Shown here piece by piece: positions 42,778 to 60,400 of a stretch of 64,000 nt of DNA. The position numbers were made by a program, and so were the translations under genes. Under the pieces are notes generated by a model. The model was not told the origin of the DNA. It worked only from the letters and a program-made list of their open reading frames with translations, and ran no database searches. How positions within the stretch are numbered: position 1 is the first letter of the stretch; the number at the start of each line of letters is the position of its first letter. Source of the stretch: Cytophagaceae bacterium (GTDB taxonomy: Bacteria; Bacteroidota; Bacteroidia; Cytophagales; JAIYAX01); NCBI GenBank assembly GCA_027488815.1, contig JAIYAX010000005.1, positions 1 through 64,000 on the forward strand, given 5' to 3'.

Positions 42778-43851
42778 TTATTGAAAAAGTCGAAAGAACT
42801 CTTCTCTGATTTTGGGATTGACGGCTACAGCTAATAAAATAGAGATGATCAATCCTATGAGTGTATAAGTGATATCCTTGACAATGAGGCCAATGGTTTT
42901 CTTAAGCTCTCTTTTTTCAGGCATATCATAAGCGTAATGGGTAGCAAGCTCTCTACCAGCCAAGAGACCTATAAATACCCAAGTGGTGCTCATAGGAATG
43001 GTGCTGATGTATTGAAATACAAACAGTATGATGGCATACACGAAGTCAATAAGAGTTGCCGGTCTTACATCTTTAACATTTGATTTTTCAGTGATCACTT
43101 CTTGAATTTTATCCCCTTTCCGGTAAAAGATAAAGCCTAGCCCGAAGAAAATCACGATGGTAAATGCAAGAAACTCCATTAGGTTGAGCTGACGAGGCAA
43201 GAACACAGCAATATTGGCGGCATCCTGCATGATCCAAACAGCCCAAAGCAAGCCGCTCGTGATCCACTGGGCGACTGTCCATGCAAAATGAGCCTCTCCT
43301 TTTTGAATTCTCTTGATGAACTTAGCGAAGACCAGCCACAAGGCAATTGACATAAAGAAGGCAATAAAATAGCCGGAAAGGCTTTTTGAGATCACCTTAA
43401 AAATGGCCTCCGACTCTGTGGTAAACGAGCTTAGCAATAAAAAGGTCGTAGACACCGGCATTCTCCATCGAGTGAGGATCAACAACACAATAGGAGCCAC
43501 TAGTTGCAAATAGGCAAACTGTTCAGGAGATTTTTCAAAACCCTTGCTGGATAGCCTCTGATAGCTTACATCACCATCATATACCACCCAACTGATGGTT
43601 ACCGTGATGACAAAAATGACACCGATATACAACCATAGAGCCCACCATTTTTTGTCCCCATTTGAAGAGATAAAAGTGCCTATGGTTTGGATGCTATCGT
43701 TTGATACAGCACTGAAAGCTGCAAGGGCAAACCCAAACCACATGGCCACCGGAGCATAACCATAAACAATTCCTGCGAGTGCAAAAAGCAAGAGAGTGAT
43801 TAGTATAAACCAGCGCTCACGCTCCAAATAGAGAGATATCTTTCCTTTCAT
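42778..43851 (-). CDS. PiT-like (inorganic phosphate transporter-related) membrane protein
   Basis: 357 residues from ATG 43851, about ten membrane helices. The sequence has an inverted-repeat pattern: 'AVSNDSIQTIGTFISSN' (near 46) with 'MPVSTTFLLLSSF' (near 133) in the first half, and 'MQDAANIAVFLPR' (near 219) with 'IPMSTTWVFIGLLAGRE' (near 290) in the second half. These parallel the duplicated G-x-N-D-x-A-N and P-V-S-T-T-H signatures of PiT family phosphate/sodium transporters, although the Asn-Asp-Val-Ala-Asn core is altered (SNDSIQ, QDAAN). A phosphate substrate is probable, but drift leaves doubt. Confidence 0.7.
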   Translation of the reverse strand: MKGKISLYLERERWFILITLLLFALAGIVYGYAPVAMWFGFALAAFSAVSNDSIQTIGTFISSNGDKKWWALWLYIGVIFVITVTISWVVYDGDVSYQRLSSKGFEKSPEQFAYLQLVAPIVLLILTRWRMPVSTTFLLLSSFTTESEAIFKVISKSLSGYFIAFFMSIALWLVFAKFIKRIQKGEAHFAWTVAQWITSGLLWAVWIMQDAANIAVFLPRQLNLMEFLAFTIVIFFGLGFIFYRKGDKIQEVITEKSNVKDVRPATLIDFVYAIILFVFQYISTIPMSTTWVFIGLLAGRELATHYAYDMPEKRELKKTIGLIVKDITYTLIGLIISILLAVAVNPKIREEFFRLFQ

Positions 43852-43888
43852 GATTGGCAAAACCCTGTGGGAGCCCTTTTTTTGAGGG

Positions 43889-44141: not shown

Positions 44142-44169
44142 TTGGTTTAAAAAAAATCACCTAACTTTA
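44142..44169 (+). promoter_or_regulatory. promoter of the NTT-HEAT gene
   Basis: TTG (44142-44144), 17-base spacer, TAACTTTA (44162-44169), one mismatch to TAnnTTTG. Starts transcription about 22-30 bases before the TTG start codon at 44198. The same TAACTTTAG octamer variant recurs before the TIR gene. Confidence 0.5.
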
Positions 44170-44197
44170 GGACAAATCAACTAAACGAACAATCCAC

Positions 44198-47100
44198 TTG
44201 AGAACTACTCTTCGAGGAGTTTTGGACATTAGTGAAGCCGAAGAAAGACCGGTTTATCTCCTGCTATTAAATTCTTTCTTTCTAGGATTATTTCTTGCCA
44301 CTTTTGATGTAACCGCCAGTACCCTCTTCATTGATACTTTTAGCGAAAAAAGGCTTCCTGAAGGTTTCATAACATCAGGTGTCCTTGGGGTTATTTTCAC
44401 CTCTGCATTTGGTTTCCTGCAAACCCGTATTGCATTCTCCAGACTGGCTATTTACAATCAGATCTTCATTTTTCTGGTCACTGTGCTGCTGGCAGTATCC
44501 CTGGAACTGAATCAGAAAAACGAAAACTTAATATTCCTTGCCTTTGGTCTTATGCTGCCACTCAACACGCTTGCGTTGTTGGGTTTTTACGGCACAGTGA
44601 GCAGGTCCTTCAATTTGAAAGACGAGAAACGCATAACAGGTACGGTTGATCAGGGTCAAATGATCGCCTTAACCATCGCCTTCTTCCTTATTCCCTTTAT
44701 TCAAAACATTATCACAGATTTAGCCGCCTACCTCTTCATTTCCGGTGCCAGCGTTTTGATTGTGTTGCTTTTTCAGGCTATGTTTTATGGCTCTGTATCC
44801 GGAGCTGATCGTCTGTTTAAATCAGGAAGCTCAAAAAGTACCCGCCCTCAGGTCATCACCTATGGGCAACTTTTTGGTGAACGATACATGCGCTTGTTAG
44901 TGGCTTTTGCGTTGCTTTCTGCAGCAACAGTATTGGTGGTGGAGTATAACTTTCTATCTGTTGCTGCCCAGCAATACCCTGATACCAACTCATTGGCAAA
45001 TTTCCTGGCTTACTATGGAGGTATTCTTACCATCTTTAGTTTAGTTCTTCAAACCTTTGTTGCTGACCGGGTAATTGCAAGCTATGGGATGAAGATATCT
45101 CTTCTGATTTTGCCACTGGTAGTGGGCATAATAGCCTTGATTTCATCGGTGATCGGCCTTTTCTTTGGAGCCTCTTCAAGTTTTGAAGGATTTATCTTCT
45201 TTTTCCTATTCGTAGCGATGACCAAACTGCTTCACAATGCTACATTTGATGCATTTGAAGACCCCATCTCAAAAACGCTTTTCATTCCCCTTGATGCTGA
45301 TATCAAGTTGGATGCACAATCCAAGATCAATGGATTTTTTAGAGAAATGGCCAAGATTGTGGTGGGAGCTATACTCATTGGATTGGGACTATTGCAATTT
45401 GCTAGTCAGGCCTTGTTTACATTTATATTGGCTGCTGCCATGCTTTATTACGGTTTTCTGTTGATTATAATCTACAACGAATACCGAAAAACCCTGACCA
45501 ATACCCTTTCAAAGCACAAAAAAGAAGACGACACTGATTTGAACATGGAGTATGACCTAACCGGCTTACTTAAAAAGAACATCAGAACCTCCGATCTTAA
45601 AAAGTTGGGTAGCGGACTACGCCTGTTAAAAAAACTAAACCCCCTGGAGTATCAGTTTTCGTTGGGCTTATTGCTTTCAAACAAGACAGACTCTATCAGG
45701 TCATTGGCTACAAACAGCATTACACCCTTTGATTTTATGATTGATCAGGACCTGGTTAAAAACAGGCTCAACGCTGAGAATTCGACCAAAATCAAGAAAG
45801 AAATAGAAGAAAAGCTCCATGAGTTGGAAAGTACGAAGTTCTCAGTTGGTTCACTTAATGAGTTGAGCCAAAGTCTGAAATCGAGGAACTACTCAGACAG
45901 ACTGAAGGCAATCGCTTTGGTGCCGCAGTTTAAAGGAGAGGAACTAAGACCTTTTTTCAATCCACTGCTTCGTGATCCCAATTCAGCAGTGCGGCAAGCT
46001 GCCCTGCTCATGGCCACCCGACTGGATGATCCATACTATTATCCCTTGATTACGGAAAATCTGGCCAACCCCGAATTCAGCGCAGCGGCAGCCTCTGCTC
46101 TTGTTCTGGCCGGAGATGAGGCAATTCCCTTGCTCGAAGGTGCTTTTTACAGGTCGGGGCAAAGCACTGGAACCATGACCCTAATCCTACAGATCTATGG
46201 TCGGATAGCTACTGATAAAGCCATACATGCCATTTGGAATAAGATTGATTATCCTGATGCTCAGATCGTTTCACAAGTTTTATACAGCCTCAGCACCTGT
46301 GGTTTTATGACCACCACAGAAAACGTAGCCCGCATTAGGCAAACATTAGAGATTGAAATTGGTAAAGTTGCCTGGAACATTGCTGCCATGGAAGAGTTTG
46401 GCGACAACAATACCGAAATGCTGAAAGAAGCTATGGAGGAGGAGATTGCAGCCGATTATCAGAAAATATACATGCTGCTTTCACTGATGTACGACCCACA
46501 AAGTGTACAGATGGTTAGGAGTTCGGTTGATAGCGGCACTGTTGAAGGTCTCGTTTATGCCATTGAGCTATTGGATGTGTTCCTTTCTGATGAAATCAAG
46601 CCTTTGTTGTTTCCTTTGCTTGAGGACATCCCCCAATCCGAGCGTAACGAAAAACTGCAAACTCACTACCCCAGGGAAGACCTTACAGAAGATGAAGTAT
46701 TGGTCTACATCATCAACAGGGACTACAACTACCTGAACAAGTACACCAAAGCCTGTGCCTTGTATGTGATGGCCAGCAGGCAAAGGCCTATTCCTGCTCA
46801 GGATGTCATGGCAAATCTCTTTAACCCGGATCCGTTTTTAAGGGAATTGGCCGCTTACCTCTTGCTTAGAGGCCATCGGGAAGAATTGGTGGATTGCCTA
46901 CAGCGATTGCCCGATGAACTGCAAAGTGAGCTTGAAGCTAAGCTGGACTACCTTGACAGGACAGACATTTCTTTGGAGCAACAAGAACTGCTGATCAACA
47001 AAATCTACCGTTTCAAGAAACTGGAATTGTTCAAAGAGTTGCCAGGAGATTTGATCATGGAACTATTTAAATCCATGCAACTCTTCTCCTCGGAAAGATC

Positions 47101-47413
47101 CTTGCTGGATGAAGCCCCGGATTACTCGTTCCTGACAAAGGGTTGGGTTTTACTGGTTGAAAAGGGTGAACTTAAAGTCATCACAAAATCAGGAAACAAA
47201 GAAATCATGCAGGCAAATGACACCAGAAGCTTCTCTTTTTTAACGGATAACGAAGACCCTGTCGTAGAGATCCTCCCACAAGACCAAACCTTTTTTTATG
47301 GGCTTTCCGAAGATAAGTTTTTGGAGGTAATTGCATCCCATACCGACATGGCCAAAGTGCTGATTGCCTTTATTGACAAAGCTCAAATTCAACTGGAACC
47401 TAAACAGGCATAG
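44198..47413 (+). CDS. nucleotide-translocase-like (Npt1/Npt2) protein fused to HEAT repeats and cNMP-binding-like domain
   Basis: 1071 residues. The N-terminal 430 residues have about twelve membrane helices in the arrangement of ATP/ADP translocase (NTT, Npt1/Npt2) and MFS proteins ('LLLLNSFFLGLFLATFDVTA' in part, near 20; 'GFLQTRIAFSRL' near 70). Next a helical-repeat region (about 460-900) with HEAT-like units ('PFFNPLLRDPNSAVRQAAL' near 592). The last 130 residues (about 945-1060) start 'FKELPGDLIMELFKSM' and look like a degenerate cNMP-binding barrel. Start: TTG, because no ATG is found before the fourth helix. It precedes the TIR-STAND operon by 86 bases with its own promoter. Confidence 0.75.
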   Translation: MRTTLRGVLDISEAEERPVYLLLLNSFFLGLFLATFDVTASTLFIDTFSEKRLPEGFITSGVLGVIFTSAFGFLQTRIAFSRLAIYNQIFIFLVTVLLAVSLELNQKNENLIFLAFGLMLPLNTLALLGFYGTVSRSFNLKDEKRITGTVDQGQMIALTIAFFLIPFIQNIITDLAAYLFISGASVLIVLLFQAMFYGSVSGADRLFKSGSSKSTRPQVITYGQLFGERYMRLLVAFALLSAATVLVVEYNFLSVAAQQYPDTNSLANFLAYYGGILTIFSLVLQTFVADRVIASYGMKISLLILPLVVGIIALISSVIGLFFGASSSFEGFIFFFLFVAMTKLLHNATFDAFEDPISKTLFIPLDADIKLDAQSKINGFFREMAKIVVGAILIGLGLLQFASQALFTFILAAAMLYYGFLLIIIYNEYRKTLTNTLSKHKKEDDTDLNMEYDLTGLLKKNIRTSDLKKLGSGLRLLKKLNPLEYQFSLGLLLSNKTDSIRSLATNSITPFDFMIDQDLVKNRLNAENSTKIKKEIEEKLHELESTKFSVGSLNELSQSLKSRNYSDRLKAIALVPQFKGEELRPFFNPLLRDPNSAVRQAALLMATRLDDPYYYPLITENLANPEFSAAAASALVLAGDEAIPLLEGAFYRSGQSTGTMTLILQIYGRIATDKAIHAIWNKIDYPDAQIVSQVLYSLSTCGFMTTTENVARIRQTLEIEIGKVAWNIAAMEEFGDNNTEMLKEAMEEEIAADYQKIYMLLSLMYDPQSVQMVRSSVDSGTVEGLVYAIELLDVFLSDEIKPLLFPLLEDIPQSERNEKLQTHYPREDLTEDEVLVYIINRDYNYLNKYTKACALYVMASRQRPIPAQDVMANLFNPDPFLRELAAYLLLRGHREELVDCLQRLPDELQSELEAKLDYLDRTDISLEQQELLINKIYRFKKLELFKELPGDLIMELFKSMQLFSSERSLLDEAPDYSFLTKGWVLLVEKGELKVITKSGNKEIMQANDTRSFSFLTDNEDPVVEILPQDQTFFYGLSEDKFLEVIASHTDMAKVLIAFIDKAQIQLEPKQA

Positions 47414-47433: not shown

Positions 47434-47464
47434 TTTGATAATGTGAATGATGTCAATAACTTTA
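47434..47464 (+). promoter_or_regulatory. promoter of the TIR-STAND-adhesin operon
   Basis: TTTG (47434-47437), 19-base spacer, TAACTTTA (47457-47464), one mismatch to TAnnTTTG. About 36 bases before the ATG at 47500. Same -7 variant as before the NTT-HEAT gene, so both may be read together. Confidence 0.55.
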
Positions 47465-47499
47465 GTTCATTTCTGTACTTTCATTTAAAACCTTAAGTC

Positions 47500-48987
47500 A
47501 TGTTTGACTTTGATTATTACATCAGCTACAGTCCATCAGACAACCAGGCCTCCGATGGTGGCAAAGGGTGGGTGACCAATTTTCAAAAGTTTATTGAAAT
47601 ATTGATCACACAGCTTCTAGGCGAAAAACCAAGGGTACTTTTTTTACCCAATGGCGAAAAGCCACAGCAAAGCCAATTAGCTGCCTGTGGGGTTATGGTC
47701 AGCATTTATTCACCGGATTATGTGAGTTCTACCTCTTGTCTTGAAGACTTAGATGCTTATGCCCAGCTTAGTACACAGTCAGGTCTGGAGCTTAAAAGCA
47801 GGTTTTTTAAAGTAGTTAAGTACCCTCTGATTACTGTTGATGAACCCAGTCGTACCCGAGGCCTTATCAACTATGATTTGTTTGCTATTGATCCTGCCTC
47901 CGGACAGTTTGAGGAAATTAAGGATTTCCTGAGCAGAAGCGCCGACAAAGACTATTGGATGAGGCTGGCAGATTTAGCCTTCGACATTTTTGCAGCCATT
48001 AGAAACAACCGTCCCGGAGGTGGAAAAAAAGCTTTTTGGGAGAAGGATGTCAGGTACATTTATTTAGCAGAAGTAGGTCCTGAATTGGCAGTTTCCAGAT
48101 CTGTGATCAAAAGGGATTTGATCCGTCATGGCTTTACCATATTACCAGATGAAACTTTGCCAAATCAAGCTGCTGAGCTGGAAGTGGTGATCAAAAGAGA
48201 TATCAGCAGAGCAGAACTCAGCCTGCACATGATGGCAGATACTCCCGGCCGCATCATCAAAGATACTCAGGAAGGAATCGTGCAGTTTCAAAACCGAATA
48301 GCCTCTGAGTTTTTTCTGGCTGAGCATGATCCTCAAAATGCATCTCAGCTGAGCCGGGTGATCTGGGTAGACCATAACTCAAAGCAATCAACTCTGGCAT
48401 TCAAGAAGTACATTGAAGGTATCCGAAAAGACCCTGAGCTTAGTGTAGGCGCTGAAGTACTGGAAATGCCTCTGGAAGACTTTAAAGCTGTTCTTCGTGA
48501 ACGCCTTGACACCAATCAAAAGAATGCTGAGATCCAGAAAGTAGCAAAAACCCAAAGTGGTAAAACGATGAAATCAGGTAAAACAAGTATTTACCTCATC
48601 TATGATCTCATGGATGAACAGCCTGCCAAAATGTTAACTCAGAAGCTAGAAGAAATGCAGTTTGATGTGGTCATTCCTGATTTTACACATGGGTTCATGG
48701 AGATGAGAAATAGCCATCTCGAGAACCTTAAGAATTGCGATGCTTTTTTGATTTACAAAGATCAGGTCAACGACCGCTGGATACAGATGAAAGCACTGGA
48801 CACTTTAAAAGCACCGGGTTTGGGAAGAACCAAGCCCTTGGCGCCTAAATGTGTTTTCCACGCAAAAGGCAAGCCCATCACCAGTGCGGATCTTTCCGCC
48901 TATGCTATTTTGGTACTGGAAGAGGAGCAAAAAGGAACCGTCCAGACATTAGAGCCATTCCTTAACCAACTAAGTAAGAAATCATGA
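47500..48987 (+). CDS. TIR-like protein with three Rossmann-type modules
   Basis: 495 residues, no signal peptide, cytoplasmic. Module 1 (1-180): TIR-like, begins FDYYISYSPSDN as in TIR box 1 ('YDxFISYS'), with box-2-like IYSPDYVSSTSCLEDL at 69-84. The usual catalytic Glu (W/S-C-x-x-E-L) falls on Asp83; Glu82 is one residue earlier. Module 2 (about 183-345): 'VRYIYLAEVGPELAVSRSVIKRDL' (in part), a DUF4062/TIR-like fold found next to STAND NTPases. Module 3 (about 362-490): TIR-like, 'SIYLIYDLMDEQPAK' and 'NCDAFLIYKDQVNDRWIQMK'. Overlaps the STAND gene by four bases (ATGA), so its product is likely that protein's partner or effector. Confidence 0.8.
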   Translation: MFDFDYYISYSPSDNQASDGGKGWVTNFQKFIEILITQLLGEKPRVLFLPNGEKPQQSQLAACGVMVSIYSPDYVSSTSCLEDLDAYAQLSTQSGLELKSRFFKVVKYPLITVDEPSRTRGLINYDLFAIDPASGQFEEIKDFLSRSADKDYWMRLADLAFDIFAAIRNNRPGGGKKAFWEKDVRYIYLAEVGPELAVSRSVIKRDLIRHGFTILPDETLPNQAAELEVVIKRDISRAELSLHMMADTPGRIIKDTQEGIVQFQNRIASEFFLAEHDPQNASQLSRVIWVDHNSKQSTLAFKKYIEGIRKDPELSVGAEVLEMPLEDFKAVLRERLDTNQKNAEIQKVAKTQSGKTMKSGKTSIYLIYDLMDEQPAKMLTQKLEEMQFDVVIPDFTHGFMEMRNSHLENLKNCDAFLIYKDQVNDRWIQMKALDTLKAPGLGRTKPLAPKCVFHAKGKPITSADLSAYAILVLEEEQKGTVQTLEPFLNQLSKKS

Positions 48988-51900
48988 GTTCTGTAGAAGT
49001 ATCTGACTCTAAGGTTGAGCACATCAAAATCACCACAAATCCCTTTCCGGGATTAAGGCCTTTTAGTATTGATGAAAGTCACTTGTTTTTTGGACGTGAA
49101 GGCCAAAGTGACGAGGTCTTGCTCAAGCTTTCAGAAAACAAGTTCGTTTCCATTATAGGTGCTTCCGGAAGTGGTAAGTCCTCATTTATGTATTGTGGGG
49201 TTATTCCAATCCTATATGGTGGCTTCCTGACCGAGGCAGGCTCAAACTGGGATGTGCTGGCCTTCAGGCCCGGAGGCAGCCCGATTGACAACCTGGCTGA
49301 AGTGCTTCTCACCAAAGATGAAGCCTACCTTGAAGCGGATGATGAAGAAAGGCAAATTAGGAAGAAGATCATCTCCACTTTGCTTCGAACCAGCACCAAC
49401 GGTCTGGTGGAAGCCGTAGGCCAAACGTTGGTCACCCAAAACCGCAACATCTTATTGCTGGTCGATCAGTTTGAAGAACTTTTCCGTTTCAAAAAAACGG
49501 ATGAAGAGGCCGGAAATGAATCGCTTGCTTTTGTAAACCTGCTGCTGGAGGCCATCTCTACACCGGATACGCATATCTATGTGGCACTTACCATGCGTTC
49601 AGACTTTATCGGTGAGTGTGCACAGTTTCCTGAGCTGACCAAAAAAATAAACGACAGCCACTACCTCATCCCTCAAATGACGAGGGAGCAAAAGCGTATG
49701 GCCATCATTGGGCCGGTAGCTGTGGGTGGCGGTACCATCACGGCCAGATTGGAGCAGCAGTTGCTGAATGACCTTGGTGACAATCCAGATCAGTTACCCA
49801 TTCTGCAGCACTCCCTCATGCGTACCTGGGATTTCTGGCGTACCCACCGTGAAGGCAATGAAGCCATGGACCTCTCGCACTACGATGCGATCGGGCGTAT
49901 GGCAGAAGCACTCTCTCAACATGCCAATGAAGCCTATGACGAACTCAGCCCTGATGATAAGGAAATCTGTGAGCGGATGTTCAAAACCATCACCGAGAAA
50001 GGCGGTGACGTTCAGGGGATCAGAAGACCTACAAAACTTAAATCCATCGCCTCCATCTGTCAGGTTGAAGAGAGCAGGCTGATCCAAATCATCGATAAAT
50101 TCAGGGAGCCGGGTCGTTCGCTTCTAATGCCGCCTGCCGGAGTAGCCCTACACTCCGAAACCATCATCGATATTTCCCACGAAAGCTTGATGCGTATCTG
50201 GGTAAGGCTAAAAAACTGGGTGGATCAGGAAGGTGCTTCCGTACAGATGTACCTGAGGCTTTCCGAGGCCGCAGCCCTTTATCAGCTCGGTAAATCAGGC
50301 CTTTGGAGACCACCCGATTTGCAGTTGGCCCTCAACTGGCAGGACGAGCATAAGCCAACACTCGAGTGGGCCCGCCGCTACAACCCTGCTTTTGAAAGGG
50401 CAATCGTTTTCCTCGAGACAAGTAAAAACGCCTTTGAGACAGAGCAACGGATCAAAGAAATGCTGCAGCGCAAGAAACTGCGCCAGTCTAGACTGATAGC
50501 TGTGATCTTTGGTACGGCTACGGTGATTTCGTTATTCCTCTTGGTCTTTGCGGTGATCCAAAAGCAAAAGGCCGATGAGCAAACTGCCTTGGCAATCAAG
50601 GAAAAAGCCAGAGCAGAGAAAAATGAGCAGGTGGCCAATGAGCAAAAACTGATCGCCCTTGAAAGTGAGAAGAAAGCGATTGCCTCAGCCGAAGAAGCCA
50701 ACCGTCAGAAGAACATCGCAGAAGAGCAGAAGCAGTTGGCCGAAGCCAGTGCCGCAGAAGCCCTGCGTCAGAAAAACATCGCTCTGCTAAACGAGAAAGA
50801 AGCCCTTCGTCAGAAGAACATCGCTGTACAGGAAAAGGCCAGAGCTGAGGAAAACGAAAAGATAGCCAAAGAGCAGACCCTCAAAGCCGAGCAAAATGAA
50901 AAGAAAGCCTACCGACTCCGTTTGCTTTCCATTTCACAGTCCATGGCGGTAAAGTCCGTACAAATCCCCGATACGGTGCGAAAAAGCGTGGTTGCCATGC
51001 AGTCCTATGTGTTCAACAAGGAGAATGAAGGGCCTCAGCACAACCACGATGTGTTTGATGCCTTGTACTATGCCCTCAAGTCGCTGAAAGGCGATGATTT
51101 TAACCGACTGACCGGCCACCGTGATGCTGTAAGGTCCATCGCTCATAGCACCAATGGAAAGGTGTTGTACACAGGTGGCTCTGACGGACAAGTGCTCAGG
51201 TGGAAAGTGGAAGGTGCCAATTACACCAAAGAAAATTTTGTAAGTACCGGTAACTTGATCAGGAGCATCGCTGTGAGTGACAATGGGAAGTACCTGGCAG
51301 TAGCGATGGAGCAGCCGGGCATTTTGGTATACGATACCGATCAGCCCACTGCTACGCCCATCCGCCTGACAGGCCATGCCGGCATGGTCACTTCGGTTGA
51401 ATTTGTGCCCGGCACTACTCTTTTGGCCAGTGTGGGCACCGATAGCAGCGCCAGACTTTGGACCCTGCCTCAAGCGCAAGGCAGCCTGATCGGCACCGCA
51501 AACAGCAAGCTTAACACTGTAGCCACGAGCTACGACGGAAACCTGATTGCAGCCGTAAGCGACCTGGGTCAGGTGATGATCTGGAACCGGGCCAAAGACA
51601 ATCAATTGCTCACCTTAATCGAGACCGGAGGCCGTAAAATCTATGCCCTAGCCTTTGCCCATGAAAAACCATATCTGGCAGTAGGCGTAGGGACAGGTAC
51701 CATCAAAATCTGGAACTACCGTGAAAAGAAAGTGATCAAAACCCTTGTGGGCCATAGAGCCAGAGTAAACCAGGCAGCTTTCAGCTATGATGATAAAATG
51801 CTGGCTACCGGAAGCTTCGACAACACCATCAAACTATGGAATCTGGAGAATTTCAACGATCAGCCCATTGACCTGAAAGACCATAACTCCTGGGTTTGGT

Positions 51901-52127
51901 CATTATCTTTCAGCAGGGACAATAAGACCATAGTAGCAGGGTGCGTCGACAATCTGATACGGGTATGGCCAACGGATATAGACCAGATGGCTTCTCAAGT
52001 TTGTAGTCTGCTGCCCCGTAACATGACCCAGAAAGAATGGGAGCAGTATGTGGCAACCGACATACCCTATGAAAGTACCTGCAAAGGCTTACTAAAAGGA
52101 ACTGAAGACAGCAGCAACGAAGAGTAA
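48984..52127 (+). CDS. nSTAND1 NTPase with transmembrane helix, coiled coil and WD40 propeller
   Basis: 1047 residues. nSTAND1 NTPase (about 19-490): NPFPGLRPF at 19-27, FFGRE, Walker A GASGSGKSS at 59-67, Walker B LLLVDQFEE at 157-165, and 'LTMRSDFIGECAQFPEL'. Then one hydrophobic helix (about 504-526) after a cluster of basic residues (KKLRQSR), a charged coiled coil (about 527-640) and seven WD40 blades (709 to about 995, e.g. LTGHRDAV, LTGHAGMV, LVGHRARV, LKDHNSWV). By the positive-inside rule the NTPase is cytoplasmic and the propeller periplasmic. STAND proteins are switch ATPases that assemble after ligand binding. Coupled to the TIR gene. Confidence 0.9.
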   Translation: MSSVEVSDSKVEHIKITTNPFPGLRPFSIDESHLFFGREGQSDEVLLKLSENKFVSIIGASGSGKSSFMYCGVIPILYGGFLTEAGSNWDVLAFRPGGSPIDNLAEVLLTKDEAYLEADDEERQIRKKIISTLLRTSTNGLVEAVGQTLVTQNRNILLLVDQFEELFRFKKTDEEAGNESLAFVNLLLEAISTPDTHIYVALTMRSDFIGECAQFPELTKKINDSHYLIPQMTREQKRMAIIGPVAVGGGTITARLEQQLLNDLGDNPDQLPILQHSLMRTWDFWRTHREGNEAMDLSHYDAIGRMAEALSQHANEAYDELSPDDKEICERMFKTITEKGGDVQGIRRPTKLKSIASICQVEESRLIQIIDKFREPGRSLLMPPAGVALHSETIIDISHESLMRIWVRLKNWVDQEGASVQMYLRLSEAAALYQLGKSGLWRPPDLQLALNWQDEHKPTLEWARRYNPAFERAIVFLETSKNAFETEQRIKEMLQRKKLRQSRLIAVIFGTATVISLFLLVFAVIQKQKADEQTALAIKEKARAEKNEQVANEQKLIALESEKKAIASAEEANRQKNIAEEQKQLAEASAAEALRQKNIALLNEKEALRQKNIAVQEKARAEENEKIAKEQTLKAEQNEKKAYRLRLLSISQSMAVKSVQIPDTVRKSVVAMQSYVFNKENEGPQHNHDVFDALYYALKSLKGDDFNRLTGHRDAVRSIAHSTNGKVLYTGGSDGQVLRWKVEGANYTKENFVSTGNLIRSIAVSDNGKYLAVAMEQPGILVYDTDQPTATPIRLTGHAGMVTSVEFVPGTTLLASVGTDSSARLWTLPQAQGSLIGTANSKLNTVATSYDGNLIAAVSDLGQVMIWNRAKDNQLLTLIETGGRKIYALAFAHEKPYLAVGVGTGTIKIWNYREKKVIKTLVGHRARVNQAAFSYDDKMLATGSFDNTIKLWNLENFNDQPIDLKDHNSWVWSLSFSRDNKTIVAGCVDNLIRVWPTDIDQMASQVCSLLPRNMTQKEWEQYVATDIPYESTCKGLLKGTEDSSNEE
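50703..50824 (+). repeat. heptad-phased coding repeat in the STAND coiled coil
   Basis: The 17-mer CGTCAGAAGAACATCGC (encoding RQKNIA) occurs at 50703, 50766 (one mismatch) and 50808. Spacings of 63 and 42 bases are 3 and 2 heptads (21 bases), so the repeat keeps coiled-coil register. Confidence 0.8.
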
Positions 52128-52129
52128 CC

Positions 52130-53170
52130 ATGAACAAAATCCGATCACTTATTCTGCTTATCGCCCTGCTAGGTTTGACAGGAAGCCTGTCTGCTCAGAA
52201 CATTTGCAGTCAGAACCTGCTTGCTGCTCAACGTAAGTACGATCAGGGACAATTGATGGAAGTAAATAAGCTACTTGAGAAATGTCTTGAGACGGGCTTT
52301 ACCAAGGCTGAAAAGCTCCAGGCCTACCGGCTTTCTATCCTTTCCCTTCTCTTTCAAGATGAGCAGGAGCAGGCAGGGGAGTTGATGGTAAAGCTGCTTA
52401 AACAGGAGCCGAGTTATTTGCCTAATAGAGCCGTAGACCCTTCTGAATACATCATTCTCTACGATAGCTACCGAGCTGTGCCGAGGTTTGCAATCGGTAT
52501 CAGAGGAGGATTTAACAACACTCGAAACAGGATTCTGAATACCTATAGTCTCAGCAATACAACAGGTAACGAAGTAAAATATGACAATTTAACCTCTCTT
52601 AGCCTGGGAATTACTACCAGTACTGCATTGTACAAGAATCTCCACTTGAATTTAGATATTCTTTATGCTGGCAGGGGTTACTCAATTAATGATCCCTTTC
52701 TTGATTTTGTTGTCAGCTACGAGGAGAGGCAGAACTATCTGGAATTACCTTTGGGCCTAACTTATCTTTTTGGTAAAAGAAAAACGAGACCCTATCTTCA
52801 GGCTGGTGTCGCTACAGCTTTTCTGCTTGAAGCAAATGCACTTGTCCAAAGAAATCAACTGGATGGAACAAGAGAAGCCGTGGGCCCGGAGTTTTCTGTT
52901 TTAAACCTTCGAAACTCGATACAAACCTCTGCTTTCGGATCAATAGGAGTACGAAGGAAATTCGGAAAAGCAGAAGTATTTGCAGAAGCCCGTTACTACT
53001 ATGGATTGATGGTGAACAATAATCCTGATAAAAGGCTAAGCGACAAAGACCTCGTCTTCAGGTATGGCCATCTGGACAGTGACTACTCCCTAAACAATCT
53101 GATGATTTCAGTAGGGTTCCTACAAAACTTTTACTCCATACGCCGAAATAAGAAATTCAATGACCGCTAG
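52130..53170 (+). CDS. outer-membrane beta-barrel protein with TPR-like N-terminus
   Basis: 346 residues. Signal peptide 1-22 (ends SLSAQN). Residues about 25-110 form a helical TPR-like region ('AQRKYDQGQLMEVNKLLEKC' in part). From about residue 122 a beta-barrel of the PorT/OmpW-like type runs to the C-terminus ('FAIGIRGGFNN', 'LELPLGLTYLFGKRKTRPYLQAG' in part). Two bases separate it from the STAND gene, and its stop overlaps the next gene by 11 bases, so it is in the operon. It may be an outer-membrane anchor or channel for the lipoprotein and adhesin encoded downstream. Confidence 0.8.
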   Translation: MNKIRSLILLIALLGLTGSLSAQNICSQNLLAAQRKYDQGQLMEVNKLLEKCLETGFTKAEKLQAYRLSILSLLFQDEQEQAGELMVKLLKQEPSYLPNRAVDPSEYIILYDSYRAVPRFAIGIRGGFNNTRNRILNTYSLSNTTGNEVKYDNLTSLSLGITTSTALYKNLHLNLDILYAGRGYSINDPFLDFVVSYEERQNYLELPLGLTYLFGKRKTRPYLQAGVATAFLLEANALVQRNQLDGTREAVGPEFSVLNLRNSIQTSAFGSIGVRRKFGKAEVFAEARYYYGLMVNNNPDKRLSDKDLVFRYGHLDSDYSLNNLMISVGFLQNFYSIRRNKKFNDR

Positions 53171-54419
53171 ATCACTGTTGGCAATACTCAGTATTGTCGG
53201 ATTATTTTTACAAAGCTGTCAGCCTGAGGCTGTAAAAAACCCGGAATTCACGAAGAGGTTTTTGAAAATATACGGTGGAGCAGACGGGCAGAGTGCTTCC
53301 GAATGCATACAACTAAAGGACGGTGGCTATGCTGTAATTGGAACCATAACCGCTACAGATCAGCAGCAGGCTTATCTTGTTGCCACTGAAGCCGACGGTA
53401 ATATCAGATGGACAAGAACCATTGGCTCCGGACTTTTCACCAAAGGAATGAGCATGGAACTTGAGCCCAATGGAGATATTTTGATTGCTTGCCAACAGAC
53501 GGGTTCGAATGGGGTCACTTCTTCCTTGTTATTAACGTACTCACCCGAAGGCTCACTAAAGTCTTCTGTTGATGTTCGGAGATCTGGTTCAGGAAACCTG
53601 GACTATGCTGTTCAAAGGGTAAGGAGGGCAGCTGATGGTGGACTTTGCTTTGCAGGAACGACTAATGACACGGTCGGTACCGGCTTTACAGGAGCATTAG
53701 ATACTACTCAATTCCTCATTTTCAAAACGAATGCAGCGGGGTTGGTTACACATACCTTCGCAAGAGGATTTACGGGGGTGGATATTGGAATGACAGCCAC
53801 TCAGGCAACAGATGGATCGGTTTTTATGATTGGCAGCAGCCGGCTTAAACCCATTGCGGGTCAATTCCAGGATGATATGGTTTTTATCAAGGCTGCCCTT
53901 CAAGGTGATGGGACTATAGGTTCAAATAATGCCCCCACTAAATCTGACAACCAGGTTAACCCCACTAATCCCAAAGTTGAGCTTTCTGATGCACGAGATA
54001 TGGTAGTAGTGAGCCCAAATGAAGTAGTGATTGCAGGAAATACTGGTGATAACGAAATTTACATCAGTCGAATTAACCCTTTGGCAACTTCCAACAATAA
54101 TCTTGGGTTTATTCAACTGCCAATTCCTGGTGAATGTGAAGTAAACTCAATCATGCCCACTCCAGATGGTGGCTACATTCTGGCAGCTACAGGCAGAGGC
54201 AACGGACAAGGGAACGCAGGAGAAAACATGCTATTGATCAAAACCAACAGGCAGGGTGTTCTTTCCTGGTTCAGAGCTTTTGGAGGAGACCGAGATGACA
54301 AGGGGAAAATGGCTATTGCCACATCCGATGGCGGCTATTTGCTTACCGGCACACTAGGCTTTGAAGGTATACCTATGATTTGCCTCATCAAAACAGACCA
54401 AAACGGATTTATTGAATAA
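53160..54419 (+). CDS. lipoprotein with beta-propeller-like repeats
   Basis: 419 residues. Signal peptide with lipobox LFLQSC (Cys20), so a lipoprotein. The mature part consists of about six repeats with the pattern 'DGGY-x-x-x-G-T...-hydrophobic-K-T-x-x-x-G' (DGGYAVIGTI, DGGLCFAGTT, DGSVFMIGSS, VVIAGNTG, DGGYILAATG, DGGYLLTGTL) as in outer-surface propellers. No catalytic motif. In the operon it lies between the beta-barrel and the giant adhesin; its place suggests an outer-membrane lipoprotein partner of either. Confidence 0.82.
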   Translation: MTARSLLAILSIVGLFLQSCQPEAVKNPEFTKRFLKIYGGADGQSASECIQLKDGGYAVIGTITATDQQQAYLVATEADGNIRWTRTIGSGLFTKGMSMELEPNGDILIACQQTGSNGVTSSLLLTYSPEGSLKSSVDVRRSGSGNLDYAVQRVRRAADGGLCFAGTTNDTVGTGFTGALDTTQFLIFKTNAAGLVTHTFARGFTGVDIGMTATQATDGSVFMIGSSRLKPIAGQFQDDMVFIKAALQGDGTIGSNNAPTKSDNQVNPTNPKVELSDARDMVVVSPNEVVIAGNTGDNEIYISRINPLATSNNNLGFIQLPIPGECEVNSIMPTPDGGYILAATGRGNGQGNAGENMLLIKTNRQGVLSWFRAFGGDRDDKGKMAIATSDGGYLLTGTLGFEGIPMICLIKTDQNGFIE

Positions 54420-54434
54420 ATTTCAAAAGAAACG

Positions 54435-57400
54435 ATGCGACTTTTACAAATTATTTTCTCTTTTTCTATTTTCCTGTTGACTTTAGGTCAGCTTAAGGCA
54501 CAGGATTCTCTTCGGATCATCGCACCTTCAGCCTATCCCTGTATTGGAAACACCTCCTTCATTCCATTAGGTGATATTGTGATAGAAGAACTTTCTGCTG
54601 TTAATACTGCTATTCCCAATACTTCCGGCTCTACCGACTCCATCATTTTTAGGATTACCAATAGTAATCGATTTGAATTTGAAGTGCCTGATAACGCCAC
54701 CACCGTTCATTCCGGTTCATTAACTCTTGCAGATACCAGAACGTATACCTGGGGTGCATTAGGAGACACTCTGGTGTTTCGTTACAGACTTACAGGCTCG
54801 ACCAATGGAGGTGTAGACCGTTTTACCATTCAAGGGGTTCGGGTACGAGCCAAAGGAACTGTTCCGGGAGTTGCAGAAATCGTTAGAGTTGGAGGAAATA
54901 GTGCGTGGCCTGATATTCAAGTGGCCAATAACATCACTTTTGCGACACTTATCAGTGTGACAAGTGCTAATCAGAGCATCAATGCAGGCCTTGATCAAAC
55001 CAAGTGTTTTCCTGAGAGTTTTTCCCTGAGTGGAAGTCTTAACCTTACCTATCCTTATGCAGATACTGTATTGTGGTTTACTACCAATGGTGCAGGTTCA
55101 TTTTCTAGCACAAGTTCAAGAAACACAGTATACACACCAGCGCCGGCTGACACTAGTTTGGCGGGGCCGATTCAAATCAGATTTAGGCTTGACAACAATA
55201 ATTGCTTTACCACCCTTCAGGACACTTTGTTCTTGACCTTGAGCAAACGAATTCAGGTTGAGGCTGGTCCCGCTGATACCGTTTGTGCAAACGGTCCATT
55301 TCAATTAAACGGGAGCATTGTTCAGGGAGTAGCCACAGCTAGTGGTGTTTGGTCAGGTGGAGCAGGTACTTTTTTACCTAATAATTCCACTCTGAATGCA
55401 ACTTACACCCCGTCGGCAGCTGAAATCAGCGGTTCAGGCTTTTTCCTGACATTATCTTCTACAGTTGCAGCTTGCCAGTCTGTAAGGGATTCGGTTCGAT
55501 TGGTTTCAAACCCAAAGAACCGACCCTCCATCAATGCAGGAACCGATTTTTCGGTTTGTAGGGGATCAACTGTCTCATTGAGTGCTATTGTTTCAAACTT
55601 AGGATCCGCCACCTTATCTTGGAGTAAAGTACCCGGAGCGCCAGCTGGGTCATTTTCAGCAACCACTATCGTCAATCCGGTTTATACCCCTAGTAACGCT
55701 GATTATGACAGTGGTTCTGTACGATTGGTATTAAGCTCTGTAGGAGGAACCTGTGGAATTGTTACGGACACCATTCAAATTAATTTTCAAGCCTTGCCTA
55801 TTGCCTCATTAGTATGTTTAGATGCTGATACTACGATCTGTGCCGGTCAGCCCATTTCTTTTCAGGCTTTTGGTGGGGCAAGCTATCGTTTCCTGGTGAA
55901 CAATACACTTCAGGGTGCCTCTGCAACGGCTACCAATTCTTTTACTTCCACTTCGTTAGCCAATGGTGATACAATTAGAGCTAGGGTATTTAGCGGAGCT
56001 AGTGGAGCAGGTTGTGTGAATGCTACTAACTTCTTTAGAGTCAGGGTGAATCCCATACCTGCAACACCAACATGGACAGCAACTACACAAAACTTCGCCA
56101 ATAATGCGCCTCCGATTGAACTTGATAGTATTGGAACTCGTACCCTGGCAGGAGGTACATATAGCGGAACAGGAGTTATAGGAAATTTTCTATTTCCTTC
56201 GCAAGTAGCACCTGCCACTTCAACTTCAATTACATATAGTGTAATCGTCAATGGTTGCCCATCTAATCCTTCAGCACCGGTTACCTTTAATTTCTTTGAT
56301 CCTAATCAACCTATCGCAGGATTAGCTGCAGCCTATTGCTTTAATGAACCCCAAGACACCATTTTTGCTGATATTCCTCCTGGTAGAATATTCTTTGATT
56401 TCGGTTTTTTTAATGGTGCTGTTTTTGTTCCTTTTCCACCAGCAGATATACTTGTTACAGCCTCTAATGTTCGTGCAATTATTTTGCCTTCAACTCTGGG
56501 TAGTGTTGCGAATGGGGGCATTGGAACAAAAAGAGTTGTGTTAAGGACATACAGTTTTTCACCAGTATTTAATATCCAAGAATCAGCAGTTCAGAACACT
56601 AGAATCAATGCAAACCCAGTAATTACCATCACCAACGCTTTAACCGGAATTATTTGCGAAGGAACCAGACAAGACAGTATTCAAGTAAGTGTAACACCAA
56701 ACAATCCCGGATCATTTTCATTCTCTAATGCAGTAACACCCATTGCGGGCGGAGGAGCGAGATATAATACTCAAGACAACGGGGTTCTTCCTCTCTGGCC
56801 TTCAACGAGAACCGCCTCAATAGTTTTTACAGAGAGTGGAACGGGTTGCTCAGGTGCTACTAGCAATTCATTTTCTGTTACTAGACAACCAAACCAGCCT
56901 ATTCTCCCTGCAGATGATACCTTGTTATGTGCGGGAGTGCCATTGCCAACCTTTAATGCTATAATTGATACCACGGGAATATCATCGTTCATAACACGAA
57001 TTTTTTGGTTTAATGAGTCCAATTCCACCACCAATGGCATCATTGCATCAAATACCTCGATCTATCCACCAAGTGGAAGCGGAACTCAAACCTTTCAGGT
57101 AACTGATACATTGTATGTTCGTCAAAGGATTTTGTCAGATTGTTTTAGCGATCCTGCATCAATCATAGTAAGAATAAGCAACCCACCTATTCCAAATGCA
57201 GGAATTGCTGATACCGTTTGCGAAGGACAACCTATACCCATTGACGGTATCGTGAGCAATGCACCCGTTGGACTTACAACCTCATGGAGCACGGCTACCC
57301 CCAACCCGGGAAGTTTTACTAATACCACCTTGCTTACGGGGGTCACGTATACCCCTAGCCTGGCAGATCGCAACAGAGGCTTTGTGCGAGTACAACTCAC

Positions 57401-60400
57401 AACATCTGATCCTGATGGGCCCGGAGGTTGCCCGGAACAAGAAGCTGAAGTAAGACACATCATCAATAAGGTGGCCTCGCTTTTTGCAGGGAATGATACG
57501 GTAATTTGTGCAGGCTCTCCTATGACTCTTCGGCCGGCCATTACTCCTACTACACTGGGTGGGCGATGGTTTCCTCAGGACACTCTAGGCATCTTTACAT
57601 CAGGGGCTACAGTGCCGACACAGCAAAATTTCACACCCAGCAATGGTTTTTTGAGCCCAACTGATTCTACAAGGGTTCGGATGATCTTTCGCACAGATGA
57701 TCCGGATAATGCAGGACCTTGTACCGCAATAGAAGACACCATGTTTATCAGGGTAAACCCTAGAAATATACTCAATGCTGGAAGGGACTCTGTCTATTGT
57801 GAAAGTGCTGATACGATCACAAACATTGATATTAGAAGCACAATTGGAGTAACTTTTTCTGGTAATCCCCTAACGCCTTTGATCTGGTCAGCCAATGGGA
57901 ACCACAATGGCTTTGTCAATGCCTCTAACCTGCCTGATTCATTGTATCGATTGGACAATTCAAGAGCACGTACCTATCGTGCAAGTGCTGCTGATGTGCA
58001 AAGAGGATTTGTTTGGCTGGTGCTTACCGCACTGGACCCTGACGGTGGAGAACCCTGTACTCCTGTTTCTGACTCCATCAGAATTCAGATCAACCGAAGG
58101 CCCAGAGTAAATGCAGGGGTGGATCAAACCATTTGCTCCAATGGTGCGGTTCCGTTGAATGCAATACTATCGAGTAATGTAGCCGGAGCCTGGACATTGG
58201 GTGCCGGAACATTTAGCAGGCAAGGCCCTCTAGTAAACAAAAGATTGTATACAGATGCTCTTTATACCCCGGCCTTATCAGAAATTTCTGCAACAGCAAT
58301 TACAACTGTTTTATTAAGATGGCAGACCAACGATACCGACTCCACCGGACCTTGTCCGATAATTGAAGATGATATCTTGATTACGATTAATCCAAAAGCC
58401 ACGATACAGGTTGGGAATACAAGTGATACCATTTGCGCCGGACAGACCTTTACTTTTGCAGCAGCTATTGGAGGTGGGGCATCCTCTTCTACCTGGATAG
58501 GGGGGCAAGGCACATTTAACCCCTCCAGATCATCACCAACTGCAACTTATACACCTGACTCAACCGAGATACCACTTGTTACTAATTTCCGAAACATCAC
58601 ATTCAGTTTGGCTACCAACGATCCTGATAGTGCAGGCCCATGTCAGGCTGAAACTTTGAATAAACGTTTGGTGCTGAATAGAATACCTACGGTACGTGCA
58701 GACTCCGCAAGCAGAGACACCATTATTATTTGTAGCAATGAAACAGCCAGTTTGAAGAGTGTTTTAGGAGGCTCTGCCAGCGTCGCAACCTGGATAGGTG
58801 GAACGGGTACCTTTTCGAATAGAAACATTACAGCAGTTCTGAATTCCGTAACTTATGCTCCAAACCTTAATGATCCAAATGAGTACACACCGAATCAACC
58901 TCGGTTTATTACACTTATTCTGGAGTCAAACAGTTTTGACCAATGTGCTCCAGTAAAAGATACGGTCATTATTCGGGTCAATCCTATTCCCATTGTGAAT
59001 GCCGGCCCTGATCTGGTGATTTGCGCTGGTGACAGTACACAGTTAGGCGGATCATTCTCCGGTAGTACCACAGCGGTAGTATGGAAGGGAGGGCTTGGCA
59101 CCTTTGTGCCGAATAGAAACGCTGCCAATGCATGGTACATCCCCCATCCTTCAGAAATACCGCTTGCAACTCCAAATTTTACCATTACACTCAGGTTGTT
59201 TTCTGATGACCCTGATGGCTTTGATCCCGTGGCCGGGCCATGCGATAGTGTGTTTGATGTTAAAACATTGACGATAAACCGGATAAGAACGGTTGTTGCA
59301 GATACAAGCGGAAGAGATACGATTGTTTATTGCAGAGGAGCAGAATATCGTCTAGCAGCTGGTTTTTCGGTGCCGGGAACTACGGTGACATGGTCAGGAG
59401 GTACCGGTACTTTTAGCCCTACAGCAAACAGGTTCACTACATATCTGCCCGGGCCTGGAGAACTTGACTCTACTTCGACAGTATTTGTACGTTTACGAGT
59501 AACTACTGATGACCCTGACTCAATAAATCAAACCTTAAATGGCCCTTGTGGTAGGGTGTTTGATGAAGTGATTCTTCGTATTGATCCTGCAGTCGTAATT
59601 AATGCAGGTCCAGACCTTACCTATTGTGCCTCTCAAACTGTTCAGCTCTTTGGCGCTATAGGCGGCTCCGCAACTTCAGCAATATGGTCTGGCGGAACAA
59701 ATAATTTTAACAATCTTAATGCATTAAATGCAGTTTATTTTCCTGACAGTGCTCAGTTATTTCAGGATACTGTATTTAATCTGATTTTATTCTCAGCAAC
59801 TCAAGCGGGTAGCTCATGTCCTTCTAAGGCAGATACTGTACAGATAAGCTTATATGCAAACCCGGTCCTGAATATCTCATTGCCAGATACTCAGTTTTGT
59901 AATCTCCCAATACCGATTACTGGTCAGCTAAATGCAAGCATCATTGGAAAGCCATCTCTGCCTTCAAGCATTGCATCAGTCTCAGGGCCTGGAATTACCA
60001 ATTTCACCAGCGTAAACTTTACATTTAATCCAACGGTCGCAGGCGACTCACTTAAAATTATAACATATGCTTTCACCCGATTGGCAACAGAAGGTGATTG
60101 CTTCTCTGATACAACCCTTAACATTGTAGTTCACCCCCAACCGAGAGCTGCTTTAAAATGGAGTGGAACCTGCCAGGGAGACACTCTGCTGTTCTCTGAC
60201 TCGTCCAGACTTGACATTTCCAGACAGTTTTCACCCAATAGCATTGTGACATGGGCATGGGATTTTGATCTCGGCAGCATTGCCCAAGACAGTATTGGAG
60301 GTATACCTAGTGACTCTTCTTACTTACAAAACCCCTCTTACTTCTACCGCACTCCTGGTCTGAAACGACCCTCTTTAACGGTGACCACTAACAACAATTG

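Follow-up and report, generated by a model that had tools for sequence, protein, structure and literature searches.

A conserved gene module of Cytophagales unites an NTT-fold carrier bearing HEAT repeats with an nSTAND1-WD40 switch and an outer-membrane barrel

We analyzed a stretch of 64,000 nucleotides from a Cytophagaceae bacterium (GenBank assembly GCA_027488815.1, contig JAIYAX010000005.1, positions 1 to 64,000; hereafter the window), which encodes a nucleotide translocase (NTT)-type carrier fused to HEAT repeats. Joint presence, linkage, and operon spacing showed that this carrier belongs to a conserved gene module. The core of the module consists of the carrier (an NTT fold with HEAT repeats and, usually, a degenerate cyclic nucleotide monophosphate (cNMP) barrel), a switch protein composed of an nSTAND1 ATPase, a transmembrane (TM) helix, and a WD40 propeller, and an outer-membrane barrel, often together with a triple TIR-fold protein that is probably a scaffold. 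The constant partner of the carrier is the nSTAND1-TM-WD40 switch, followed by the barrel, and not the TIR-like protein. The window locus has the following layout, in which T9SS denotes the type IX secretion system:

44162..44170, + strand: possible promoter box of the carrier gene, TAACTTTAG (motif count and shuffles; the same motif also lies at the TIR-like gene)
44198..47413, + strand: NTT-HEAT-cNMP-like carrier, 1071 aa (open reading frame, homolog starts, profile, model, and Pfam)
47457..47465, + strand: second copy of TAACTTTAG, 5' of the TIR-like gene (motif count)
47500..48987, + strand: TIR-like protein, 495 aa, with three TIR/NDT-fold domains (TIR, DUF4062-like, and TIR-like)
48984..52127, + strand: nSTAND1 ATPase, 1047 aa, with one predicted TM helix (507-525), a helical linker, and a WD40 propeller
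52130..53170, + strand: outer-membrane beta-barrel protein (OMP_b-brl_2), 346 aa, with a signal-peptide-like start
53160..54419, + strand: putative lipoprotein, 419 aa, with weak delta-60 repeat similarity (E 0.0064, below the cut-off)
54435..62294, + strand: large PKD protein, 2619 aa, with a T9SS type A sorting domain

The TIR-like gene begins 86 bp 3' of the carrier gene and is overlapped by the nSTAND1-WD40 gene by 4 bp. The STAND and barrel genes are separated by 2 bp, the barrel and lipoprotein genes overlap by 11 bp, and the lipoprotein and PKD protein genes are 15 bp apart, all on the same strand.

The co-occurrence of carrier and switch was examined in 291 genomes of the order. The carrier cut-off of 1e-40 was set beforehand, and the STAND cut-off of 1e-120 after a first look at 1e-90, both by eye. 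Carrier matches were present in 132 of the 291 genomes at 1e-10 and in 80 at 1e-40, and 78 of these 80 also contained an nSTAND1 gene at 1e-90. At 1e-120, the nSTAND1 gene was found in 79 of the 291 genomes, so that 78 genomes possess both genes, two only the carrier (G016 and G071), one only the switch (G169, 79% complete), and 210 neither (Fisher p 1.6e-67, without kinship correction). None of the 52 genomes with an NTT E-value between 1e-40 and 1e-10 contained a STAND gene at 1e-120. Genomes with both genes and genomes with neither coexist within at least six families (f5, f10, f12, f15, f19, and f22).

The two genes are also physically linked. The 80 genomes hold 98 carrier loci, 67 of which, representing 14 of 16 families, have a switch on the same strand within 5 kb; the gap between carrier and switch is 1.4-2.1 kb in 36 of these loci, 200 bp or less in 11, and larger in 20. 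Ten of the remaining loci have a switch farther away on the same contig, and 21 lack one on the contig, which is partly explained by contig ends. When one genome per species was scanned, 49 loci were obtained, mostly from a single TIR-less clade, and the order was therefore sampled broadly. In the DNA downstream of the carrier in the 49-locus scan, nSTAND1 was found in 43/43 loci with at least 2 kb, the barrel in 40/40 with 5 kb, and the lipoprotein homolog in 31/38 with 6.5 kb. The median spacings are 4 bp (TIR-STAND), 2 bp (STAND-barrel), and -4 bp (barrel-lipoprotein). The gene-neighbourhood statistics with TIR and STAND genes, which the first-pass annotation of the window had proposed as a check, are strongly positive within the order, and they single out the nSTAND1-WD40 gene as the constant partner. 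The carrier is rare beyond the order: a sample of 395 genomes of the class, some of them from the order itself, gave matches at 1e-25 in 12 genomes that lie outside it. Three of the 12 have the switch, each time near the carrier, and it was not seen in the other nine. The module had no match in phages and was found in three plasmid records, and on these grounds we rejected the idea that it is a mobile defence gene.

Phylogenetic trees (FastTree, midpoint-rooted) were compared for the 73 loci that had a single carrier hit and, no more than four genes away, a full-length switch. The NTT and STAND tree distances correlate with r 0.90 over the 73 loci, the best of 1000 permutations reaching 0.27, and those of NTT and TIR with r 0.90 over 29 loci (best permutation 0.53). 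Gene order varies. The commonest arrangement in 40 stretches sampled from the order is carrier-TIR-STAND-barrel-lipoprotein-large gene, and 29 of the 40 include the TIR-like gene. A STAND-upstream form, with carrier and switch still together, occurs in families f10 and f12 and in genome G587. In five f10/f12 stretches, the switch and a longer barrel-containing protein are encoded 5' of the carrier, preceded by STAS and RsbW-like genes and followed by histidine kinase and SpoIIE phosphatase genes. A SpoIIE phosphatase gene lies close to the carrier in five STAND-upstream loci, and in five further loci, from f9, f11, and two genomes outside the order, it stands between the carrier and the TIR-like gene. 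Public annotation also revealed a STAND-upstream module on a Runella rosea plasmid (L117, NZ_CP030852.1), flanked by STAS, RsbW-like, GlgX, GNAT, histidine kinase, and SpoIIE genes. In the TIR-less clade (L002-L050), an OmpH-like periplasmic chaperone gene lies directly 5' of the carrier in 34 loci, and long synteny with groEL-type, secG-like, and sigma-54 regulator-like genes extends farther upstream.

The carrier reading frame begins with a TTG codon, which aligns with the start in most of the 27 homologs compared. The protein comprises a carrier region (about residues 1-440), a helical HEAT region (about 465-920), and a barrel (about 930-1060). As a single sequence (phmmer), the window carrier matched Chlamydia pneumoniae NTT1 (9j3n) with E 2.4e-6. 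A profile of 17 carrier domains matched 9j3n (E 1.1e-15) and AtNTT1 (9j3j; E 1.7e-15), and these were its only structure matches at E up to 0.1. We compared a model built from 28 sequences, with a mean predicted local distance difference test score (pLDDT) of 72.4, with known structures. Three NTT entries ranked on top (Z 35.3, 31.6, and 28.1), followed by another member of the major facilitator superfamily at 27.4. The best match, AtNTT1 (Z 35.3), aligned over residues 1-434 with a root-mean-square deviation of 3.0 for 423 residues and 14% identity. By profile and by predicted structure, the carrier part of the window protein is an NTT fold, and the membrane domain falls inside the NTT family, whose members are the only profile matches and the topmost structure matches.

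Pfam detected only HEAT repeats in the window protein. The 28-member alignment, consisting of the window copy and 27 of the 49 one-per-species loci, hand-picked for length and spread, contains one member that matches TLC, and the window carrier was not matched by TLC even at E up to 10. HEAT_2 is present in 28/28 members and cNMP_binding in 27/28. The sole miss is the window copy, the barrel of which was recognized by alignment only; because it alone escapes cNMP_binding, it is the most degenerate of the family. In the cNMP cassette, the Glu is present in 28/28 members and the phosphate-binding Arg, at a position taken from an alignment with PKG, in 1/28, so the combination of Glu and Arg that marks a cyclic-nucleotide sensor is not conserved in the family. 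The profile, the model, and the HEAT_2 and cNMP_binding matches bear out the anatomy of the initial description, an NTT-type carrier with HEAT repeats and a degenerate cNMP barrel.

The accessible text of two studies reports that the charged residues K155, E245, E385, and K527 are required for exchange by AtNTT1 (PMC3306366, PMC4256464). AtNTT1 numbering was obtained as the chain position plus 84, which gives Glu at 385 and Lys at 527. In the profile-structure alignment, E385 corresponds to window E249 and K527 to window K386. E245 falls at about M119, via a six-residue gapless extension of the alignment, and K155 has no alignable counterpart. At the E249 position, 27/32 TIR-linked carriers have E or D and 40/53 others have Q; at the K386 position, 7/32 TIR-linked carriers have a basic residue and 44/53 others have R or K. 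At position 119, most TIR-linked carriers have a non-polar residue, and the remaining carriers show a mixture (I, T, N). The PLD motif is retained, with P364 in 85/85 carriers. As a set, the four charged residues are not kept, since E245 is non-polar in the window and E385 and K527 vary in the family. The NTT fold is retained, whereas the pattern at E245, E385, and K527 suggests that the AtNTT1 exchange chemistry is absent or altered.

The switch of the window contains a full nSTAND1 domain (Pfam, E 4.3e-94). Among 78 switches, 73 have a strict P-loop motif and 74 have one predicted TM helix, near residue 511; Lys and Arg are richer on the ATPase side in 73 of the 74 single-TM proteins. These figures, which derive from simple hydropathy and pattern counts, predict a cytoplasmic ATPase and a periplasmic WD40 propeller. 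Signal-peptide-like starts were detected in 67/71 barrel proteins and 63/67 lipoprotein homologs. Homologs of the large protein were found at 59 loci by single-linkage BLAST, a count that may be inflated by repeats. Several STAND genes are split or contain in-frame stops (L076; G004 C1:1115238-1118324; G017 C9:19873-22992; G055 C1:1790034-1793099); these are pseudogenes or sequencing errors.

The TIR-like protein directly after the carrier, which the first-pass annotation had called a TIR gene, was modeled with a pLDDT of 84.4 as three Rossmann-like domains. Domain 1 is a TIR domain by its similarity to the SPARTA TIR (Z 14.6), domain 2 resembles DNPH1 (Z 12.2), and domain 3 resembles TIR-STING (Z 12.3) and MilB (Z about 12). 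A whole-chain Foldseek search gave weak matches (best E 1.1e-4), and a profile search of the PDB with the family reached an E of just 0.1. The family alignment contains 31 of 39 hits, after removal of eight duplicate, truncated, or very divergent ones (L001, L021 twice, the short upstream copies in L031 and L035, L055, L063, and L078). At E up to 0.01, Pfam recognized DUF4062 in 22/31 and TIR_2 in 20/31 members and neither in the window copy; DUF4062 exceeds the cut-off in the operon copies of G005, G024, and G018. The catalytic positions were placed by motif, guided by SNC1 plus a DUF4062 and a TIR protein of L091. The catalytic Glu position is E in 8/31 members in domain 1, Q in 28/31 and E in 3/31 in domain 2, and K in 31/31 in domain 3. 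We rejected a TIR NADase effector as the role of this protein, given that none of the three domains conserves the catalytic Glu; for the same reason, and because the gene was apparently lost at least twice, an effector of this kind that uses the carrier is unlikely, and the TIR-like protein is more likely a scaffold than an NADase. The suggested link between nucleotide handling and a TIR effector thus keeps its TIR/STAND operon context, but the TIR-like gene is inconstant and its catalytic positions are not conserved.

The TIR-like gene is absent from 42 of the 73 carrier-STAND loci, 38 with STAND downstream and four with STAND upstream. It was probably ancestral to the module. In the trees, all loci lacking the gene fall into a single clade nested within TIR-type loci, except L053, which stands separately; this suggests that the gene was lost at least twice. 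An early impression that it is an accidental neighbour arose because the 49 one-per-species loci came mainly from one TIR-less clade; the idea was rejected once the broad genome sample gave TIR-type spacing in 36 of the 67 linked loci. In L021, L028, L031, and L035, a second TIR-like homolog lies 5' of the carrier, which is thereby bracketed by two TIR-like genes. Locus L096 (883-2490 and 3-827, both - strand) contains a carrier-free TIR-DUF4062 gene adjoining an nSTAND1-like gene, with a second TIR-like gene nearby. This pair is possibly a conflict-system relative and the source of the TIR/STAND pair.

Some copies of the module lie among genes of contractile injection systems. The Persicobacter plasmid pPP2 has an annotated cluster for contractile injection that comprises sheath, tail, gpV, PAAR, gp25, DUF4255, and tape-measure genes; inside it, 11 bp separate a homolog of the carrier from an nSTAND1-WD40 gene (E 3.8e-87 for nSTAND1). 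The same setting was observed in L065, L077, L080, and three f18 clusters, the latter also with a barrel gene. Carrier and sheath genes occur together in 25 of the 291 genomes, and in 16 of the 25, which represent five families, no more than 30 kb separates the sheath gene from the carrier or switch. The distances were taken from 42 rows, a subset of the sheath rows covering genomes with a carrier or switch and higher-scoring others. L052, L063, L065, and L077 cluster together in the carrier tree; sheath genes are close to L052, L065, and L077, and the sheath gene of the L063 genome is on another contig. Injection clusters with a carrier and nSTAND1 were recorded at L118/L125 (Persicobacter psychrovividus pPP2), L065, L077, L080, and L119-L124, and across families these clusters repeatedly include a GH18 gene and a conserved small gene, which encodes 185 aa in L118.

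We consider it about an even chance that the module products form one trans-envelope receptor or trigger complex with exchangeable outputs. In such a complex, the barrel and the putative lipoprotein would act at the outer membrane, sensing or holding something there, the propeller in the periplasm would relay the state across the inner membrane, and the STAND ATPase would switch or oligomerise. At the inner membrane, STAND would be partnered by the TIR-fold scaffold and by the carrier with its HEAT/barrel arm in the cytoplasm; the carrier would be either a transceptor that responds to nucleotides or a transporter whose substrate has changed. The output would vary by lineage: a T9SS-delivered surface protein, as in the window, a contractile injection system, or SpoIIE/RsbW/STAS partner switching. 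More specifically, and only as a tentative proposal, the carrier fold may have been repurposed as the inner-membrane part of a STAND-driven trigger, in which barrel, propeller, ATPase, and NTT/HEAT arm are one device that docks and fires contractile injection machines or drives a surface protein depending on the lineage; the signal would be the binding of nucleotides by the carrier, and transport would not be its purpose.

Several observations weigh against a single complex. Lone NTT-HEAT genes without STAND exist in related genomes, as the first-pass annotation had anticipated for an unlinked carrier, yet they are more distant members. In f18, in nine genomes of one genus, the best-scoring carrier does not adjoin the switch, although both are present. 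The NTT-barrel tree correlation is weak among TIR-type loci (0.418, compared with 0.404 for the best permutation), and shared species descent contributes to the tree correlations. Just 37/67 lipoprotein homologs have a strict lipobox. Only three of eight complete genes 3' of the lipoprotein encode a T9SS tail; three of the other five had no match at 0.01, one encodes a CTP synthase, and one a histidine kinase. A large T9SS protein as a fixed follower of the lipoprotein was rejected on this count. Finally, no sheath gene was matched in the genome of the window at 1e-20, and an injection system is therefore not the general output.

Other explanations were weighed against a trans-envelope complex. 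The protein could be an ordinary carrier of ATP, ADP, NAD+, or another nucleotide, with the STAND and TIR genes either just regulating it or employing it to provide the periplasm with nucleotides. The confirmed NTT fold, the intact PLD motif (P364 in 85/85), the acidic residue at the E385 position in 27/32 TIR-linked carriers, and the window copy's own E249 and K386, which align with E385 and K527, are all consistent with transport. Nevertheless, TIR-linked carriers mostly have a non-polar residue in place of E245 and only 7/32 of them are basic at K527, E385 is replaced by Q in 40/53 of the others, and TLC matches a single one of the 28 members and not the window copy, which makes ordinary transport rather doubtful. 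Anti-phage abortive infection, in which STAND senses phage and fires a TIR NADase while the carrier moves NAD+ or the TIR product, is suggested by TIR, DUF4062, and nSTAND1, each a typical component of conflict systems, and by the carrier-free TIR-DUF4062 gene beside an nSTAND1-like gene in G018 (L096). We regard it as unlikely, since no TIR-type domain conserves the catalytic Glu, 42/73 carrier-STAND loci lack the TIR-like gene, one clade occupies long conserved chromosomal synteny with the OmpH-like gene directly upstream in 34 loci, and the PADLOC matches are weak or partial (E 0.00032 or worse), with no phage match.

A similarly low probability attaches to the module as a regulator of SpoIIE/RsbW/STAS partner switching, with the carrier as a nucleotide transceptor, the switch as a signalling hub, and the surface and injection genes as mere neighbours. 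SpoIIE-type phosphatase genes occur in 11 loci, and STAS and RsbW-like genes, with a histidine kinase, in five STAND-upstream loci; however, most carrier-STAND loci have no adjoining SpoIIE, RsbW, or STAS genes, and the partner found more constantly is the barrel, which one would not expect if the pathway were confined to the cytoplasm. If unrelated genes had simply stayed together in a stable part of the chromosome, the wide synteny in one clade would be accounted for, but such passive linkage is highly improbable because the pair persists in rearranged loci, plasmid copies, and injection-system clusters, and because joint presence and joint absence both occur within at least six families.

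The sequence upstream of the carrier was also inspected. The first-pass annotation had noted a promoter-box variant shared by the carrier and TIR genes. TAACTTTAG occurs twice in the window, exactly 5' of the carrier and TIR-like genes, but 13 of 100 shuffles contained at least two copies. The 9-mer was therefore rejected as strong promoter evidence; the motif alone is weak, and its placement is somewhat better. The usual TAnnTTTG was not enriched in the window. The divergent gene ahead of the carrier (window 42778-43860, - strand) is a sub-threshold relative of the PHO4 phosphate transporter, and it had no homolog beside the carrier in the other loci compared.

Parts of the module resemble known systems. 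Fusions of NTT with HEAT, with or without a cyclic-nucleotide-binding domain (cNBD), were published by Major, Embley, and Williams in 2017 (PMC5381601), who, in the text accessible to us, report 43 Bacteroidetes NTT sequences over all architectures, with the fusions monophyletic. The NTT-HEAT-cNBD fusions have the same architecture as the window carrier; the operon context described in that text is a cNBD gene only, and STAND, TIR, barrel, T9SS, or injection neighbours are not described there. The ATP/ADP translocases AtNTT1 and Chlamydia pneumoniae NTT1 (9j3m, 9j3l, 9j3n), which belong to the plastid and chlamydial carriers to which the window carrier is related, share its fold, whereas the window family does not keep E245 and often lacks K527 and E385, and it carries a long C-terminal arm. 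The window switch has the nSTAND1 domain in common with conflict ATPases (PF20703; PMC8195603, eLife 2021), but, compared with the account accessible there, it is distinguished by a predicted membrane anchor, a predicted periplasmic propeller, and its tie to the carrier and barrel. DUF4062 links 22/31 TIR-like proteins to the Swarozyc TIR-like NADases (preprint PMC13174449, accessible portion); unlike these, 28/31 TIR-like proteins have Gln in place of Glu at the presumed catalytic position. The sheath, tube-like, gpV, PAAR, gp25, DUF4255, and tape-measure genes around some module copies correspond to extracellular contractile injection systems (PMC8213781, in part), and WD40, TIR, and transporter do not occur in the accessible main text of that survey. 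A literature search for NTT-HEAT-cNBD proteins tied to STAND, a barrel, and injection systems found no description, with most subscription papers outside reach. The fusion architecture is thus already known, and the gene neighbourhood is the new part, which suggests that the module is a so far undescribed device spanning the cell envelope.

The NTT-HEAT-cNBD fusions, which have had no function assigned, gain a concrete genetic partner in the nSTAND1-TM-WD40 switch and the barrel, and their function therefore becomes testable. The module points to a periplasm-facing STAND switch that is tied to T9SS surface proteins and contractile injection systems, and it bears on how cells anchor or trigger such injection systems. 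It also calls for caution with TIR genes that adjoin a STAND gene, which should not all be taken to encode an NADase effector.

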